From contig NW_020194684.1 of NCBI RefSeq assembly GCF_002865645.1, positions 3,043,030-3,107,029 on the forward strand: 64,000 nucleotides of DNA. Reading direction: 5' to 3'. The notes beneath the pieces were generated by a model, which was not told where the DNA came from, did not search any database, and saw only the letters and a program-made list of their open reading frames with translations. The position numbers and the translations under genes are program-made. Origin of the DNA: Hyaloscypha bicolor E (lineage: Eukaryota > Ascomycota > Leotiomycetes > Helotiales > Hyaloscyphaceae). This document shows, piece by piece, positions 26,800 to 41,699 of this stretch. The stretch's first letter is position 1; each line of letters starts with the position of its first letter.

Positions 26800-27600
26800 C
26801 TATATTAATGGCCTTGATCGTCCGCGTTTATCTAGTAGCTTAGCTAGCTTAAGATATCTGTTAATAGCTGCCAAGAATAATGCAGTCATTTTATATTCAT
26901 TAATAGTATCGACCTCCGTACCTTTTGCCAAAAGCATTCGTACCATCTTTTCTTGCCTATTTAATACTGCAAAGTATAGAGCTGACCCCCCATTATATAG
27001 TACTATAATATCGGCCCCGTTTTCAAGGAAAATCCCCAGTATTAGTTTGTTTATATTAGATACTACCCAGTATAATGCTATTTGGCCATATTTATTAGTG
27101 GTATTAATATTAGCCCCTTTATCCAATAGTAACCGAACCAATACCTTATGACCTTTAATTACTGCTACAAGTAATGCGGTTCTTCCTTCCACGTTTTTGG
27201 CGTCTATTTCGAGACCCTCCTGTAATAGTAACTCTATTATCTCCTTATATCCCCTATAATATATTCAAGCCCACTCTGTTCTACTATCTTCTAACGATAA
27301 CTCTATTCTCCTCGTAGGCTCTAAGGTGCAGCCGTAGCCGGGAAGTTTTTCATAGCGCCAAGTTACGTTTGGTTGAATTCCTCCTTCTTTCTGCCCCATG
27401 TGCTACCTTATCGACTTGTGGTTAGAATTGAAAACGATTCGATGCAATGCTATTCCTTCATCGCTTTCGACGTTCAATCGAGCCCCATTTTCAAGTAAGA
27501 ACTAGATCTCGATTCTCCTTCTACTAATTCGAAAACCTATTAATCCCTCGTTTCCTCCATCGAAGTCCTCTTCTCTCCCAGTATCACGAATCGATCCAGT
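26800..27600 (-). pseudogene. ankyrin-repeat protein remnant
   Basis: The minus-strand frame from about 27,600 to 26,800 encodes at least five ankyrin-like units, with cores such as GRTALLVAVIKGHKVLVRLL, LLDKGANINTTNKYGQIALY, VRMLLAKGTEVDT and, further upstream, FLLENGARLNVESDEG. Ankyrin arrays bind other proteins and are common in fungal NLR-type and HET-linked proteins. Three in-frame stops (27,502-27,504 TAG, 27,403-27,405 TAG, 27,265-27,267 TGA) break it. The longest uninterrupted piece is 27,192-26,800 (130 residues). No N-terminal effector or NACHT motif is visible. Confidence 0.75.
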
Positions 27601-28434: not shown

Positions 28435-30441
28435 TTAAATAATCTTCACTGTCCTTTTCTGAGCACCCCGTATTACTTCTAAGACCCTCAAACCCCAAGT
28501 TGTAAAAGTCCCAATTCTTTCAAAGATATCTTTTCCCTTAAATTGCAAAACAAGTCCCCTCCCATGCTGTAGGGTCTCTCCAATTAGCAGCAGGTGAAAT
28601 ATTGTATCCCCAGGCAATCCTTCGTATGGAAGTGCCACTCCGAGACTGACTGAAGAGGCTGGACTGACGTATCCCAAGGAAGACGCAGTTTCTTGAAGAT
28701 AAAACTCCCAGGTTGTAGAAGCTACCTGTTTCAATTGACCAGTCTGAATGGTGAAAACTGGACCGTGCAGAATAATGTATCCACTTCTCACCCTCCCTGT
28801 TAAATCTTTGCCTTCCGGCTCACACCTGGCATCCACAAATTCAGAAGCCACCGTCACCAAAACTCCATCAGAACCTGTAATATAGGGCCGTAAGTTGTCA
28901 TGACTAATGATCTCGTCAGACGATGCCCAAGACCAGGATGGACCTCGGTATTTTGAGTCAGTTCGAAAGGCCATAGGGGGGGTTCCGTGCCAGAGGAGTT
29001 CATGAAATATATCATCTCGCCAGAGTCCTGCCAAGTACTGTCCTCCACCAGTCGACTGCATTCTCTTAGCTAATCCAGATAGCGCTGGCAAACGGTCAGT
29101 AGGATAAGTCAGTCGCCGCAGTAAATAGCTCCCGAGCATCCTACGCCAACCATCAAATCTTTCGACTAGGATTTCATTCTGGAGCGATTTGGTAAGATCC
29201 CAGCGATCGGAAGTAGCTCCTGCCTCGTCATCGAGTCTTAAACACTCACAGCGGATAGCTGAACCACATTCCCAAACAATCTCGGCCTTTGTGAAATGTG
29301 CTATGCGAGTCGACAGGAGTTGTTCCTGATGTGTCCATCCTCGCCTCTGGAGTGGCCAGGTCCCAGTTATCCAATGCAACTGATCCGATGCACAAGGATT
29401 GCGGTGCTGGAACCCGGATGGAGGAGTTCGGATCATCGGCGGACATCCGTGCATCTCTGTTTGGGTATGCATCTTCGTTTCTCTCCCCTCTTCATCGACT
29501 ATCAATGCCGCGACAGTGACTGGCTGGTAATCTATTACCCACCCGCCCCTCTTTGAATCTCCTTTTGGGTCTGGAAATAGTAGAGCCCCATCACAATCTA
29601 CAACTTCGGACGCAGCGAACGTCAAAACGGCATCTCTATATATATCGGCCATCCTTCCCGATTCAACTTCCCAATCAGAAGCATCATCCTGGATGATACA
29701 AAGAGAGTCAATCCAAAGGTATTGATATCCCAGAAGCCTGACCACAATGATTGCCTCTTTCAAAGTTCTGGGGAAATCTGACAGCGGAATATTTTGCATT
29801 CTCATAGAAATCGTCGACTTCGTGGTGCGAATAAAATACTTGCCACCCCAGCAATAGCTGAGTGCAACGTATCGTCCAGTCTCTTCAGTCCGCGAGAGAT
29901 AGAGTCTCGGCTCCTTATTCTCGGATCCCACATCAATAACACGAGTTGGTAACAATGTTGGTTTCCATTTCTCCGCACATCCAGGGTGACTGAGACAGTC
30001 ATTCAGCCAACCTTTCAAGATCTGCACTTGGGACATATCTGCTATCGTTCTGTAGCCACGGCTCGTGGGAAGATAAGTTAAGGCCGGATGACGACATTCG
30101 GGGGTGATAAAGAACCTGGTAAAAGTACAATTCCCTTCCCATTTCGCCTCTGCCGTAAATCCCCATCCAAAGAAGCATATTTCCTGCTCATGGATATCCT
30201 TTTCATCGCCTAGTAGAGAGGCAAGTTTCCGTGAAGATAACCAGGCGTTATAAATCAATCTGCAAGTAGGACATCCAGACGAGGAACTGTGTACTAGGTC
30301 CGAAATTTTGACCTTGCTTGAGTAGTCCCTGCATCTTATGTCAGTGAGCGTATGCTACAAGCAGAGAAGACCCAACTCGTTTGTCGGCATTCCGAATGTG
30401 AAACAAATCTCACAACGCTTCTTAAGTTCTAATGACTTCAT
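28435..30441 (-). CDS. HET-domain (heterokaryon incompatibility) protein
   Basis: The open frame runs from 30,258 to 28,435, but 30,258 is a TTG in mid-protein. The frame continues upstream through GCPTCRL, the Cys-pair stretch usual before HET domains, to a stop. I propose ATG at 30,441-30,439, exon 1 30,441-30,377, a 48-bp intron 30,376-30,329 (weak GTTGGG donor, CTGAC branch site, GCAG acceptor) and exon 2 30,328-28,435, giving 652 residues. The HET domain (PF06985 type) spans about 175-265: ALSYCWGG, LWIDSLCIIQDD, then MADIYRDAVLTFAAS. Downstream RRGWTHQEQLLSTR and EIVWECGS are typical of the family. HET proteins trigger growth arrest or death on non-self contact; the partner here is unknown. 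No broken residue is seen. The N-terminal splice is the least certain part. Confidence 0.85.
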
Positions 30442-30879: not shown

Positions 30880-33800
30880 AATTAAAGGGGGTATATTATA
30901 TAGCAAAGGCTTTTAGCTAAGTATAAATTAGATACGGACCCTTTACGGACTCTTTACGGATAATATAAGAAGAAAAATAGCCCGTAAGTATATAAAGTCA
31001 CTCGTAAGTAAGTCAAAAGCTAAGCAAGACCTTATAATATTTCTGGATATACTATATTACTTATACGGTCTATATTAGGGGATAAAAGAATACAAAGCCC
31101 TGCCTATAAGGTCACTTGTAAGGCTGCTATATAGAACTAGCTATAAGAAAAGACCGGTAACCGTAAATCTATTCCTATTACCTTAAATAACTGGCCCTGT
31201 AACTTATTAATAGTTATTATAAAGGACAAAGTAAGTAGAAACTGCTTATAGGAAAGTATAAAAGATAGTTACTAATCCGTTAATTAGAGCTTAATCCGTA
31301 GAATTATCCGTAATTAGCTATTAAAGTCGCTATCTAGTAGCTATATACGAATTAAGAACTTTCTAAAGCTATAAATCGATATCTGTAACCCGTTATAAAG
31401 CCCTTTCTATAAATAGAAATTCCGCAAGAGTATTACGAGTATACCGATCTTAAGTTATAGCTTAGAGAAAGGTAGACCTAGTAAATAGATACTCTATAAG
31501 ACCTCTAAAGGTAATTCTATAATCTCAGGATCTGTTTTATTTATATTAGCCAAATCTATTATAAAATATGTCCGTTTTTAGCTAGAAAGTATATCCAGGA
31601 TTATTTAGTTAAGTTTATAGACCGTATTATTTAGAGTTAATAGAATTGCCTATTTATAAAAGGCCCGGTAATTATATAGGGCCTGTAAAAGGTATTCTTA
31701 TAAGTAAATATAATTAATTAGGTCTATAACTAATCCGGTATATGAAATAAAAGACAAGAGTATAATTTGTCTATTTAGAGACAGGTTATATAAAAGACTA
31801 TTAATCTAGTCTATAAAATCCTGCTTAGATAGGTTATTATAAACTCGTATATTAATCTGTAATAATAACTAATAGAGCTATAGCCAGATCTATATTTATT
31901 ATAAGCAGGCCCGTATTATATTAGTTTGCAAATTATATAAAACTATTAATAAGATCTGGGCAAAATTCCCTTCGAGAATTATAAATACTTCTCTAAAGAG
32001 AATATTATTTGCTATTAATTATAAATCGATTATTAGCTAGTATATTACCTTAAAGTAGTACTTGTATTATATAAATATCTTATCTCAGATAATTAGATTT
32101 ATAGATTATAAGAAAGCCCTGAATTAACTTATTTTAGTAATTATATTTATAAATAACTTATTAAACTCAAGCGGAATCCGGAATTAGAAATAAGATATAT
32201 ATTTATTCGGAAAAAGAAAAGCTATAATACCTATTAATATTATATATAAAACTATTTTACCTTAACTATAATAATAGTAATAGAGGATTTTATAAAGAAA
32301 TATCTTATTAGTTCTATTCGGGCCTTATAAGTAAAAGTAAATAGTTTATAAATTATTTATAATTACTATTATAATTATCTAAAAGCAAGAATATTAGTTT
32401 ATATTTAGCTAGGCTTATATTATAATTACTAATAATATCTTATAAATATAATTAACTTATAAATTAGCTATATAATAACTTATAGTCTAGTTAAAAGTAT
32501 TTTTAAATAGAATAATATCTATAAATATTTACTAGAGATCTATAAAGCCAAGACTAAATAAAAAGAAGTTATAATTATAGTAAAAATTAACTAAGAATAT
32601 TAGGAAATTAATTAATAGGTTATAGACTAGCTTACGGGCCAGATTATTATAGAAATACTTCTTATATTAGTCCTAGATTACTTATATATCCGAGGTTAGC
32701 TACTAGTAAATACTCGTAAAAAAAGTATTTATAAATTATAACTAGTTATTAATAAAATAGCCTTATTAAAATACTAGAATTACTTTTAATTATTCTTTAT
32801 TAAATTATAGATAATACAGGTAATATAATATATAGAATAATAGATGCCCTTAATTAAATAAAACTTATTAAAGAATTATAAATTATATATAATTATTAAT
32901 AAAAGCTATAAATAAAACCGCTTGCTTGAAGCTAGACTATAATAATAAATATAGCTAATACTATATTCTTATTTATAGTATTTCTATATCCGGGTCTTAG
33001 TAACCTATATAAAATACTATAGAAACTCGTAATATAGGTATTAGTAACCGTTTTTATATATTATATTATATTTAAAGAAAACTATTAAGGTTAAATAAGT
33101 ATTTATAGCCCGGTTTATAACTTATTTAAATAAAAAATCAGTTATAAAATAAACTATATACTATTTAGAAAAGTAAATTATAAGATATTAAACCCAGAGA
33201 AACTTCTAATATATTAGATACTTAAATAGATACTAAAAAGCCTTTATAGGGCCTATATATTAAACCTGGAAATATTAGGTAATTTTATTATTTATTCCCG
33301 AAATAATAATAATTATATAGTTTATTTCCTTATAAATATACTTATAAATATATTTAATTATTTATATAAATATATAAACCTTAATATTAATATATAAGAA
33401 AAATTTCTGGAAAAGATATAGGTTATATAAAATAATCTAGTAATTATTACAGACAATTTTCTAATCTAAAAAGCTTAATTTATAAACTATAAATATACGA
33501 CTATTATTCTAGTATTAGTATTTGAAATACTTATTTTTATAAATAATTATTATAGCTATAAATCTTTTAGGAAATCTTTTCTAGTATATAAATAGAATTA
33601 TAGGTATTTTATGAATTATATATAGGGCTTTCGGATTATTATTAAGGCTATATAGCCCGTAAAATATCTAGCTAATTACTATAACTATAAATTTGCTAAT
33701 AGAATTCTATAATAGATCTAAAAGCTTAATATAAATAATCTTATTAACTAAATTAGAAGTTTAAAAAACGGTATTTCTCCTAAAAAATAAAAGCAAATAT

Positions 33801-35030
33801 ATATATAAAAAGCTATATTTCTAGTACTTAATTATATAAATATAATTTATATATTATCCGAAAAAGTAGTTCTTAAAATCTATAAAAAACTTCTATATTT
33901 TTAAAATAAAGATCTAATAAAAAAAATCCGAATAATTAATTATTTATTATTTATTTAAAAAGTAATCTATAATTTTAAGCTAATACGGGTTAGCTATAAA
34001 GATAATAAAAAAGCTTGGCTTATTAAAGTATTATATAATAGCTATTAAGTTTTAAAAAAGCTATTATATAAAATAATTACTATTTATAAAACTTAATAAA
34101 AGAAAAAATAGCTAATATTATTTATATAAATGTTTTTATAAATTAGAACATTTATAAGTCTCGTATAAATATTTATATAAATATTCTACTAATATAAATA
34201 AAGCTAGTTAAGCGAGATAATTTTATAGGTAATATATATATTAATAATATATTATTAAAAGAAATAGCTAATATAAAAAAACAAAGAGAAAACTAAATAA
34301 ATATAAAAATAATACTAATAAAAGACTTATTACTCGAGCTATATTTACTAATAGATTCTATTATAGTTCTATAACTATAAATTATAGTACTAGCCCGAAT
34401 TATTATATAGGAAAAATAAAATACAATAAAATAATATATATTTATAAATACTTATAGCCTGCCTTATAAACTATAAATACTAGATTATAATAACTTATAT
34501 TTATATATTTATTCGGAATAAGAACTATAATCTTATTATTTATTAGAAGGTTCTTATAATAATAATTAGTACCCGATTCGAGAATTAAATATATTTATAA
34601 ATTAAATAAGATCCGGAAATCGGTTTACTAACTTATAAGATACTTATAGGCTATTTTATAGACTATAATAAACGGATTATAATCTATAAGTATATTTATA
34701 AGCTATAAAAGAACTATATAATCTAAATAAGAGAAATTAATAGCTTATATATTAATTATAAAAAGCGGATTATAAAAGAAAAGCTATATAAAAAAGGGTT
34801 TAGTATATAAAGCAGACTATAATAGGCCTTGGAAATAGAAAAGCTTATTATAGATCTGAAAGTATTAGATCCTATAAAAGAAGTTAATTTTTTTATATTT
34901 TTATATTTAACTAATATAAAGGCAAAAGTATAATTATATATCCGGATATTTATCCGGAAAGCCTAATAAAGCGGATTATTATTTGTAAAAAAGTAAAAGA
35001 AATATTATAATAAGGTAATATTATAGTAGT
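30880..35030 (-). mobile_element. RIP-degraded element with PIF1/Helitron-type helicase relic
   Basis: An AT-rich block with no intact frame. Near its left end the minus strand (about 31,226-31,085) reads SFIITINKLQGQLFKVIGID followed by LRLPVFS and a YIAALQVTL stretch. This corresponds to the last helicase motifs of PIF1-like and Helitron helicases (TINKSQGQ, ...VGIDLR.PVFSHGQLYVALSR). I could not find the Rep endonuclease motifs or the Walker A box with confidence, and a plus-strand frame at 33,180-34,100 is also fairly open. The ends are undefined, though hairpins sit at both sides (30,778-30,864 and 35,104-35,127). Confidence 0.5.
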
Positions 35031-35035
35031 AGTAA

Positions 35036-35140
35036 AGAGCTTGAATTGAGCTAAAGGCTATATGCCCGGCTAAAAGCACTGGCTACACGCTAAGTCACGT
35101 GCAGTGGCACCACGTGACTGGTGCCACGTAACAAGAAATA
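35036..35140. repeat. un-degraded segment with inverted repeat
   Basis: About 100 bases of normal GC content inside the AT-rich block. They contain the perfect 9-bp inverted repeat GTGGCACCA/TGGTGCCAC (35,104-35,112 and 35,119-35,127, loop CGTGAC) and several CACGTG-like words. It may be the end of an inserted short element. Confidence 0.6.
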
Positions 35141-36497
35141 TAAAAAGATTTATAGATTAAAGGAAATATTATATTACCCTTTTTATAATAGGCCCTAAAA
35201 CAATTATTTATATAACTAAAATAGAAGGCTTTATAAGCTATATAGTAACCTGTAAACAAATTAGTTATATATATAAGAGTTAGCCGGAAATATAAAAGAA
35301 AGCTAGAAGGCCATATAATAGATAAGTTAGTAAGAGAGTTCTCTATAATATGAACTAGGACTATAACGAACGGTTAATAGATCCGTTACTAGTATTATAG
35401 AGCTGGCTTATTTATAGAGATATCCGTAATTAACTATTATTATTATTACTAGAAGAGAAAAAGAATATTTGAATCAAGTTCTTATAAGACAGGGTATTAC
35501 TAGATATGATTAATAGTATTCCGGGCCTATTAATAAGTTAGTTAAGTCAGAAAAGAGAGGAAATACAAACTCGATAGTAATTACAGGTCTTATATTACTT
35601 GCCTTATTTTATAATAAAGTCAGAAGCAGGCTAGCTTTGTTTATAAGTAGTATAAAAGTGGGAAGGATCTATATATAAGTAAAAGGGAGAGTAATAAAAG
35701 TGGAAATAATAAAGAAAAAAAGAGAAGAATAAAGTAAGAGCCAGGATTTTTTTTTTTTAGTATTTCTTATATAACCTGTATTTTTTTAGGAAGCCCGAGA
35801 GCTAGCTAGAGGCTTAAGAATTCCTTTTATCCTATTTCTCCCGAGTATTAAAAAATCGTAATAAAAGCCCCTTATATTCCAGAACTACTAAAATATAGAG
35901 GAAGGTACTTGAGCTTCTCCTCTATAATTCTAAGCTTAGCCCTAAGGATTTGGATATAATTGCGTTCCGATATGCAATTCCCTAGAAAGGAGAGATTCTG
36001 GTATTCCTCACGTGACCAGCTTTTTTCAAGGTGTACTGAGAGCCAACCGCTTAGGGTAGTCCGAATATAGGACAATATAAAAGAGGATTTAATTAGGCTA
36101 TTATATACTAACTAATACTAAATCCTAAAGGTAAAATATGTGGCGTTTTGTGTCCCTCTTTTCATATAACATAACTCCCAGACTTCTTTATTTTCCTCTC
36201 TAAATGTCTTTAAAATTTAAAATCATATTCTTGCTTTATAAGACCTTTCCCTAAGTGCTCTGATATTCGAAAAAAAAGAAGAAGAAAAAACTCTAACGGT
36301 TACGATTAAGCAGGGGGGAATAGCTAGAGCGGCAATTGACGGTATTAATAAAACGATTAATAATATAATTAAGTACTATAATTTTCTCGTTATATATTGG
36401 TTTCTTAGGGCAGAAATAGCTAAAGAATAGCGACATACTAATAAAAACTTTATAGATTTATAAAGGAGAGACTTGATATGCCTAAATTATAGATTCA
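35141..36497. other. partly RIP-degraded region, no identified gene
   Basis: Composition recovers from left to right. A plus-strand frame around 35,280-35,740 reads fairly openly through a few TAG/TAA codons and is rich in Lys/Glu near 35,680-35,740, followed by a T-run. I do not recognise a protein. The 67-codon minus frame at 36,075-35,872 has no family features. Confidence 0.3.
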
Positions 36498-39139: not shown

Positions 39140-41699
39140 TCAGTAATGCCGTCGGGCCGTTGAAAAACGACCATAATGACGGTGGCCGTAACTGTGTTGA
39201 CGGGCGTCGACAGGAGCTGGCGTTTGTAAGGTTGGCACCGAGGTATGTGTAACTGTGCTAGGAGGTGCGACGGTTCCGACAGATGTACGCGTCGACAGTA
39301 GAGTATCATTGAGGAGCGACGGATTCTGCCGGTCGTTTTCACCTTTGTTCTTGACTGGAATGTTAGAAGTCTTGGGGTCATTCGGACGACTGATTGGTTC
39401 TTCCTCCTTGAGATTTAGATGACTCTCTTTGAATACCTTGACCAAATTCCAATCACCACCAAAATGCTCTGTGAGTTGAGGATAGCATACAAGATTGTGC
39501 TTGACGCATCTATAGCATATGGTATATCCATACGCAATACATGGTGCCTATGTTTCAATCAGCGTGTTACCAAAATGGTAGAGACGGCTTCTCCCCTCTA
39601 CCCCACAGATAATGGTAGCAATAACGTACCTCTTCTTCACGACAACCATCACAGGAATCTGTAGATTCAAAAAGCTTTGATTCCTCCACTATCTCACTCT
39701 CCGGCCAAGGAGGTATCGAAAAATGCTCATACTTAGCAGATCCCACGTGGTGGGGTCGCCACACAGAGGTGGAGGTGAGTCCTGTCATGTCTGCCTGTGG
39801 GTACAACTTCTCATTAATCTGTTGCGGACTTCCGCCTGGCTCTTTTAGGGGAGTAAGATCGCGGTATTGGTGCAGTTTATCCAGCTCCTCAAGCCTCGAT
39901 TGGAGACATGAGTTCTCCCGTTCGGCCTGGTGGTACATATTTTCTAGCTCCCGTATCGTCAAAACTGCGACCTCCGGGAGGTTCCAATCCCCAGTAAAGC
40001 GACACTCTGCACCTGCCTTAGAACAGCGGGCGCAAACAGATTTTTCAGTGGCATTGCATTGAACGCGAAGTGTCCCACAACGATCACAACTTTTACCGAA
40101 GCCAGTAAGAGCCATTTCCTGCACCGCACCTGCATCTGCTGCGGCCATGGTCTGAAAATTCTCACTCTCCATCGTGAATAGATTGGCGGATCTAGAAACC
40201 CCAAGCAAAGTAATCGCAGGTTCTCTGGGCAGATATGCAAACAATTCAATCGGCATGGAGATTATAAGAAGAGTAGAATCGCTAGCAAAGCCAGCCTCTA
40301 TCGTAATACGATCCGCGGCGATCGGCACAGATCCTAACCAATCTGCAAACAAATCAGTAGATAACTGCCTAGGCTTGATATCTCCACTGATTCGAATGCT
40401 GAAGAGCAGTCTTGGGTATTCTGGGAGCTGAGAAGGAGAAGTCCTAGGTGATGTCTCGTTACTACTCGATGGGCTTATATCGCCTCCAGTTTCGAATGGC
40501 TTATCCGCGGGCGAGCTTGATTGTGTGACGGGAGTTCCATACGAGTTTAGACTTTCTGGTGTAGGTGCTGCGTTCAGTAATGAAAGCCCTGATGATGAGA
40601 TCGGAGGTTGTAGTTGAGGGCTTGATTGAGATCTCTTCGAGGAAATGGTAATGCTCCGGGGCAGTCGATAGTCTTGTGTGAGTACAAGGTGGACTGGTAC
40701 TTTCTTGTATTTTGGGTCTTCGACCTGCCATCCTTGGACTGCAGTAAAAATAAGATTATACAAGTATGCGACGTTGAACGAAGGCATCCGAAATGACTTC
40801 CGCAGTTGCGAAATCAGTGTATGGGTGAAAGAAAATGGGCCAACGCCATTCGCAGTGTTGTTGAATGCACAAGCGGCAGTCAATTCAGTCACTCCGTTTC
40901 CTTCATTTATGATTAGACAATTTCAAAACATGAATTATTCATCAACGAAAGCACCAAGTGGGGATGCATACCCTCGTCAGTATTGCTCATGCCTGAAGCA
41001 CAGCAGTCCAGAAGGATCAAGACATCAGACGGTGACTCCTCACAAGCGGTCTGAATTCCGGACCACTTTACAGTTGGACATCTGTCCTGGAGAATATTTC
41101 GGCGGCTTGGGGAGAAGTCAACAATTAAAGATAATAAGAGTTAAGAGACAAACTTACCTGGTCCACAATGCTTGACCATGCTTGCTTAACTTACCATGGC
41201 CTGCATAATACACGATTTTGAGATGTCTGGCATTACTGTCCTTTAAAAACGTGAGAATTCTCAGATTAACCTCTATATGGCTATTGATGGCTGGTATCTG
41301 GTATTCTTCGACATCGAAATCATACAGGCTAATAAACACATCCTTGAGAGCATTGATCTCTAAAGAGACAGGAAGCTGAGGGTCCTCGTCCTCCCAAGAG
41401 AGGAGAAGTGCAGAGACATGAGTGTACCTACACCGCCGATCGCCTGCGAAGACGGCATTGGCAGCATGCTGAAGACCTCTCGCAAAATCTTGAAGGTCAA
41501 TGTGATAGTTTAGTCGATCTAGCTCTTGGCCTGATGGCGGTGGACACAGCTTAGGAAGGTTTATTGGGTTTGGTTGAGGCTGAGCGGATTTGGACAGCAA
41601 CTTCTGCCGCTTCGCCTCCTCGCCGGCCGGATTTTCGCGAGGCCCGTTGCTTTTGTTTGATAGCCGCCTCCGACGCTTCCTTTTCGTGGTTGTTTCCAT
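39140..41699 (-). CDS. caspase-like protein with two C-terminal Zn2Cys6-type clusters
   Basis: Four exons: 41,699-41,158, 41,105-40,972, 40,900-39,630 and 39,547-39,140. The introns of 52, 71 and 82 bp (donors GTAAGT, GTATGC, GTACGT) keep the frame, giving 784 residues. The N-terminus has a Lys/Arg-rich run (6-12, likely nuclear signal). Residues about 90-300 form a caspase-like domain: IVYYAGHG with His168, VLILLDCCASG with Cys216 in the catalytic place, then ELTAACAFNNTANGVGPFSF. A region seen in related fungal caspase-like proteins follows (LLFSIRISGD, STLLIISMPIELF). Residues 497-525 and 642-670 each show C-x2-C-x6-C-x7-C-x2-C-x6-C, the spacing of fungal Zn2Cys6 clusters, with a coiled-coil-like stretch (about 540-570) between them. 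Neither cluster has the basic loop typical of DNA binders. Substrates are unknown; a role in regulated cell death is only inferred from the family. Confidence 0.85.

Follow-up and report, generated by a model that had tools for sequence, protein, structure and literature searches.

The gene and its caspase-like core

We analysed a 64,000-nucleotide stretch of the Hyaloscypha bicolor E genome (contig NW_020194684.1; hereafter the window), which carries at 39140..41699 a gene for a caspase-like core followed by zinc-cluster modules. All features of this gene lie on the minus strand and are numbered within the window. The DNA shows four exons encoding 784 residues, from an ATG at 41699 to a stop codon that ends at 39140. 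Exon 1 (41158..41699) encodes residues 1–180 and part of residue 181. A 52-nucleotide GT-AG intron (41106..41157) separates it from exon 2 (40972..41105), which carries the motif LLDCCASG, and a 71-nucleotide GT-AG intron (40901..40971) follows. Exon 3 (39630..40900) is a single open frame in which the caspase domain is completed and followed by a second conserved domain, cluster 1, a coiled coil and the start of cluster 2. Intron 3 (39548..39629; 82 nucleotides, GT-AG) splits cluster 2, the remainder of which is encoded by exon 4 (39140..39547) together with a low-confidence tail. An earlier, sequence-only reading of this DNA had given the same coordinates, frame, introns and protein length, and had placed His168, Cys216 and both cysteine arrays where we find them.

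Codon usage was scored with a table built from six paralogous frames. The predicted frame scored 0.130 bits per codon in exon 1, 0.131 in exon 2, 0.122 in the core part of exon 3 and 0.129 in its zinc part, and outscored the other two forward frames in all four. The corresponding antisense maxima were 0.124 (exon 1), 0.166 (exon 2), 0.098 (exon 3 core) and 0.043 (zinc part). Exon 4 scored 0.018 overall: its middle stretches were positive, while its start and its last 54 codons were negative in frame, so the extreme C-terminus is uncertain.

Residues 227–649 form a single stop-free frame (40922..39567) that takes in the C-terminal portion of the caspase domain, the second domain and cluster 1. 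The joining of the caspase part to cluster 1 is thus independent of intron 3, and this fusion is no splicing artefact. The JGI protein P0001, 98% identical to the window protein, shares this exon 3 frame, starting at residue 229, and then reads through into intron 3; over residues 229–649 the two proteins differ at seven positions, none of them a cysteine. Because the P0001 match begins at residue 229, the catalytic dyad is outside its coverage. Could two adjacent genes have been wrongly joined? His168 (exon 1) and Cys216 (exon 2) both lie upstream of the shared frame and are linked to it through introns 1 and 2, half of cluster 2 depends on intron 3, and these splices are predicted from DNA. 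However, the caspase part and cluster 1 share their stop-free frame, which is repeated in P0001, and homologous proteins are unbroken at the sites of introns 1 and 2. We consider a misjoin barely credible, and the view that caspase and cluster are parts of one gene held for cluster 1.

The predicted caspase-like domain covers residues ∼87–315 (40632..41441, enclosing introns 1 and 2). This range was transferred, via the aligned dyad, from a predicted model of the homologue P0003 (its residues 43–271), in which a caspase fold is present. By position, the catalytic histidine is His168 of YYAGHG (residues 164–169; codon 41196..41198) and the catalytic cysteine is Cys216 of LLDCC (residues 212–216; codon 41000..41002). 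Among 40 aligned rows, the first position is histidine in 37 of the 38 rows that have a residue there and the second is cysteine in 38 of 39. The window protein thus keeps both dyad residues within its caspase-like domain, and it may be an active protease. By analogy with metacaspases, Asp214 would predict a preference for a basic P1 residue.

A Pfam scan of the window protein at E up to 10 reported two families only, Zn_clus and Peptidase_C14. The sequence-only reading had proposed a profile search for both. The zinc profile reached its cut-off at cluster 1 (see below); the protease profile did not (17.2 bits against 21.4), so the window protein is filed as C14-like and not as a C14 member. 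Two relatives do pass the Peptidase_C14 cut-off, P0002 with 22.7 and P0140 with 22.4 bits. For the second conserved domain (the 'EAGF' domain, residues ∼387–475, 40152..40418), no Pfam family was reported in the window protein; in P0003 it is predicted to fold as strand-helix-strand-strand-helix-strand.

The zinc-cluster cassette

Behind the core lie cluster 1 (residues 497–525, 40002..40088; CDRCGTLRVQCNATEKSVCARCSKAGAEC) and cluster 2 (residues 642–670, 39485..39653, split by intron 3; CDGCREEEAPCIAYGYTICYRCVKHNLVC). Their spacing is identical, C-x2-C-x6-C-x7-C-x2-C-x6-C, and 12 of the 13 cysteines in residues 480–784 fall inside the two arrays. Such arrays arose in none of 20,000 shuffles each of the whole protein, of residues 480–784 and of residues 530–784. 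Cluster 1 scored 21.5 bits against Zn_clus in the full protein and 28.3 bits as an 80-residue piece (cut-off 21), and it matched GAL4 among PDB sequences (E 5.3e-4). A long helix or coiled coil is predicted behind it (residues 541–574, 39855..39956). A single-sequence AlphaFold2 model of residues 486–575 was weak, with a block-mean predicted local distance difference test score of ∼44–64 over cluster 1 and no informative structural match.

Cluster 2 has the right spacing but missed the Zn_clus cut-off (11.9 bits). It aligns to cluster 1, including a GDWNL tail, with a score of 79 versus 39 ± 9; Cys-fixed shuffles reached it in 4 of 5000 cases and, in a second run, in 0 of 2000. To judge from this comparison, cluster 2 is a degenerate duplicate of cluster 1. 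Of the two Zn2Cys6-type clusters that had been claimed, therefore, the first is genuine by sequence and the second is a decayed copy, and the caspase core does stand ahead of both arrays with its dyad intact. The clusters may bind zinc; nothing points to the zinc-sensing protease that had also been suggested.

Where did the cassette come from? In a search of the own genome with residues 485–715, only two zinc-cluster genes, L059 (C17:378716-378919; Zn_clus 33.4 bits) and L060, matched below 1e-3 outside the gene itself. L059 aligns without gaps over 67 residues of the cassette, through cluster, linker and coiled coil, with a score of 138 versus 44 ± 9 for Cys-fixed shuffles (0 of 1000); L060 scored 122 (0 of 1000). 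Given this ungapped match, the cassette looks to have been captured as a unit from a Zn2Cys6 transcription factor gene and then duplicated. L059 has four basic positions in CRERKVKC, and cluster 1 (GTLRVQ) is basic at one of them. In cluster 2 the residues that separate the second cysteine from the third read REEEAP, with one arginine and three glutamates. With one of four basic positions left in cluster 1 and a degenerate cluster 2, DNA binding is doubtful. No Fungal_trans or other activation domain was reported by Pfam in the 784 residues.

The sequence-only reading had called for a search for other proteins with the same domain order: the core proved to have many relatives, but for residues 485–715 a protein search of 654 candidates at E up to 1 returned P0001 alone. 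This distribution, together with the degenerate or poorly coding appearance of cluster 2 and exon 4, would fit a mosaic in which tails recombine freely and this one, captured recently, drifts without any role under selection. Against this, all 12 cluster cysteines are present in the window protein, P0001 retains each cysteine within its covered stretch, and the zinc part of exon 3 scores as high in codon usage as the core. A tail without a working role is, in our judgement, very unlikely.

One core, many tails

The core (residues ∼50 to 470) has at least 86 relatives at E up to 1e-3 in a search that covered the 7990 candidates sharing most words with it. A second search, with P0080 as query, added 65, for at least 151 altogether. 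Many of these proteins are nameless; the named ones come from Hyaloscypha, Cadophora, Botrytis, Lachnellula and others, plus five Colletotrichum entries, and apart from Colletotrichum we take them to belong to Leotiomycetes. The own genome contains 66 matching stretches, four of them belonging to the gene itself and two to the zinc-cluster genes. P0001 is the partner of the window gene in a tree built from 103 cores (Shimodaira–Hasegawa-like approximate likelihood ratio test support 100).

The C-terminal parts of these proteins differ widely. We scanned 60 relatives (E up to 1e-3; 25 of 39 families listed). Among the matches listed were GATA (two), HMG-box with SAM (two), and bZIP, HLH and C2H2 (one each), and, again once each, ankyrin, NTF2, a Spa2-type GIT_SHD, SUZ, GMC and methyltransferase domains. 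P0060 combines GATA and bZIP in one protein, P0117 carries a dsRNA-binding motif, and a Myb-like domain in P0124 is slightly below the cut-off. The GATA and bZIP joins depend on the annotated spliced models P0016 and P0060, which may be misjoined. P0044, P0051, P0064 and P0077 begin mid-core and appear to be unspliced open frames, which would favour real joining.

Paralogues in the own genome show the same variety (frames of 17 of the 20 fetched loci were scanned). A 1191-residue frame in L050 (1596-5168) runs from the catalytic-Cys part of the core through the second domain into a HET domain (113 bits). In L055 a GMC domain, and in L045 a methyltransferase, follow the same two core parts in one frame; in L054 a ubiquitin-like piece follows the part of the core that the profile covers. 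In L057 (1626-6332) a 1569-residue frame holds the second domain, a weak alpha/beta-hydrolase match below the cut-off, NPHP3_N, which we take to be a NACHT-type domain, and WD40. The caspase part of L057 lies upstream of this frame, which contains the second domain only; the locus perhaps encodes a caspase-headed NLR-like protein. L052 has a further Zn2Cys6 (20.9 bits, cut-off 21) that shares its frame with the second domain only; its upstream part is interrupted by stops in a six-frame view, and in the tree it is distant from the window gene, among long branches. The RasGEF domain of L043 is on a separate frame and possibly belongs to another gene.

By these comparisons the core belongs to a large family, mainly from Leotiomycetes, in which a constant N-terminal part is followed by differing C-terminal modules. 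One may ask whether this core has acquired, time and again, the DNA-binding domains of transcription factor families that are unrelated to one another (Zn2Cys6, HMG-box, HLH and C2H2, plus GATA and bZIP if the annotated models hold), giving protease-gated regulators or protease-armed baits. We regard this as an unlikely but serious possibility. If true, repeated capture would tie a caspase directly to gene control inside one and the same protein, in a family that also bears HET and NACHT-type domains.

A candidate nuclear conflict protein

Near its N-terminus the window protein has a run that resembles a nuclear localisation signal, KRKRRRR (residues 6–12, 41664..41684), to which the sequence-only reading had drawn attention. 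In 41 rows, the window gene and the 40 homologues from alignment A2, we scored whether a basic motif, K[KR]x[KR] or else four basic residues, precedes the core. Seven rows that were cut or had fewer than 20 residues before the core were excluded (P0003, P0010, P0016, P0038, P0056, P0057 and P0058). The clade of the window gene, a 37-row tree branch with support 91, has the motif in 9 of its 13 usable members versus 0 of 21 outside (P0063, which is absent from the tree, was counted outside). Fisher's test gives p 1.4e-5, which is too small since the rows are related. These counts are consistent with a nuclear location.

The reading we favour, at just short of an even chance, is a nuclear caspase-like conflict protein that carries a transcription factor cassette as bait or adaptor. 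The basic run would take the protein to the nucleus. There the cassette, having lost most DNA-contacting basic residues and kept its zinc ligands and coiled coil, would pair with transcription factors of the donor type or be hit in their place. Binding or disturbance of the cassette would let the caspase dimerise, and the dimer would cut nuclear targets, leading to cell death or incompatibility. The trigger, the substrates, the death outcome and a role of the family in conflict we infer. We prefer a bait or adaptor to a working transcription factor because the basic residues are lost, the ligands and coiled coil are kept, and Fungal_trans was not reported.

The main rival is a protease-gated transcription factor, which we consider unlikely. 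Here the activated caspase would cut its own linker (∼475–495) and free a DNA-binding zinc-cluster dimer that changes transcription. The cassette resembles a zinc-cluster factor's whole unit for DNA binding and dimerisation, and the same type of core is joined to HMG-box, HLH, C2H2, GATA and bZIP domains elsewhere. However, cluster 1 keeps one of four donor-type basic positions, cluster 2 has its acidic REEEAP, and the protein yielded no activation domain in the Pfam scan. Similar losses bear on a chromatin-targeted executioner, in which the clusters would tether an active caspase to chromatin or DNA until a partner triggers the cutting of nuclear proteins. The basic run, the GAL4-like cluster and the intact dyad fit such a protein, yet the basic residues are lost in both clusters and no partner is known. 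This we judge decidedly unlikely. With the dyad, the clusters and the donor-like L059 in hand, a bait, a protease-gated factor and a chromatin-tethered protease could be distinguished by simple protein tests.

Several observations weigh against a nuclear bait or adaptor. The basic motif is missing in 4 of the 13 clade members, including the nearer relatives P0002, P0005 and P0006. Both dyad residues are lost in P0052 (Colletotrichum camelliae), likely a pseudoprotease, and the Peptidase_C14 score of the window protein is below its cut-off. With P0001 as its sole relative, the tail is without wider comparative support. Weak DNA binding through the single basic residue of cluster 1 is possible, and the idea that the cassette pairs with L059-type factors is guesswork based on similarity. 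The Pfam scan of the window protein yielded neither a NACHT nor a repeat domain, which would make it an unusual receptor, if it is a receptor at all. Neither a substrate nor a partner gene was identified.

Allorecognition and cell death in fungi are known from NLRs, HET proteins and protease–gasdermin pairs. Plant type I metacaspases, which are linked to cell death, join a caspase fold to an N-terminal LSD1-type zinc finger. The window protein likewise has a caspase-like domain and a zinc-cluster module in one chain, but the metacaspase finger sits at the other end of the protease and belongs to a different type. GAL4-type transcription factors share the spacing of cluster 1, the Zn_clus and GAL4 matches and the coiled coil behind the cluster; unlike theirs, the module here follows a protease and is duplicated, lacks most of the basic residues and is unaccompanied by a reported Fungal_trans.

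Caspase-type CHAT proteases have been described as parts of NLRs that control gasdermins (PMC10197012 and PMC12881547). These proteins and ours both occur in filamentous fungi and both combine a cysteine protease of caspase type with a variety of additional parts, and L057 has the second domain of the core in frame with a NACHT-type part and WD40. Pfam, in contrast, reported no nucleotide-binding, repeat or CHAT domain in the window protein, and P0002 scored 15.7 bits against CHAT, under the cut-off of 24. In the bacterial EACC1-caspase 'System 4', as set out by Kaur et al. 2020 (PMC7159879), a constant caspase is combined with up to 50 C-terminal domains, and effector deployment via auto-proteolysis is proposed, a precedent that favours the protease-gated factor. 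In its constant N-terminal caspase with alternative C-terminal domains, including a DNA-binding one, System 4 is like ours at the level of the family; it is, however, bacterial, two-gene and membrane-associated. Zinc fingers at the C-termini of fungal NLRs are discussed as possible integrated decoys (PMC12258605); the likeness is a zinc module at the C-terminus of a conflict protein, but those are zinc fingers borne by NLRs and not Zn2Cys6 clusters on caspases.

By analogy, the family resembles the caspase conflict systems of bacteria and the NLR repertoires of fungi, and caspase-type conflict proteins with varied tails are already known in kind. Searches of an open-access library gave no description of a fungal caspase joined to Zn2Cys6 or another DNA-binding domain of transcription factors, in line with what the sequence-only reading had said of the caspase–Zn2Cys6 fusion. 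The recurrent joining of the core to DNA-binding domains is the part most worth following. NLR-like variation of tails, together with an apparently captured cassette, suggests that nuclear regulators may be guarded, mimicked or released in fungal conflict.

The window contains other genes on islands of higher GC (guanine plus cytosine) content, between very AT-rich stretches (GC 0.15–0.26) at 4001-26000, 32001-36000 and 42001-64000 that look like repeats altered by repeat-induced point mutation. A HET-domain gene (28435-30354, minus strand; PF06985, 93 bits) lies ∼9 kb from the caspase gene in largely AT-rich surroundings. An ankyrin-repeat piece at 26800-27264 (minus strand) is probably part of a decayed gene. 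At 626-2368, also on the minus strand, is a gene with an NDT80/PhoG-type DNA-binding domain (PF05224, 146 bits), a family that includes a Neurospora incompatibility regulator.
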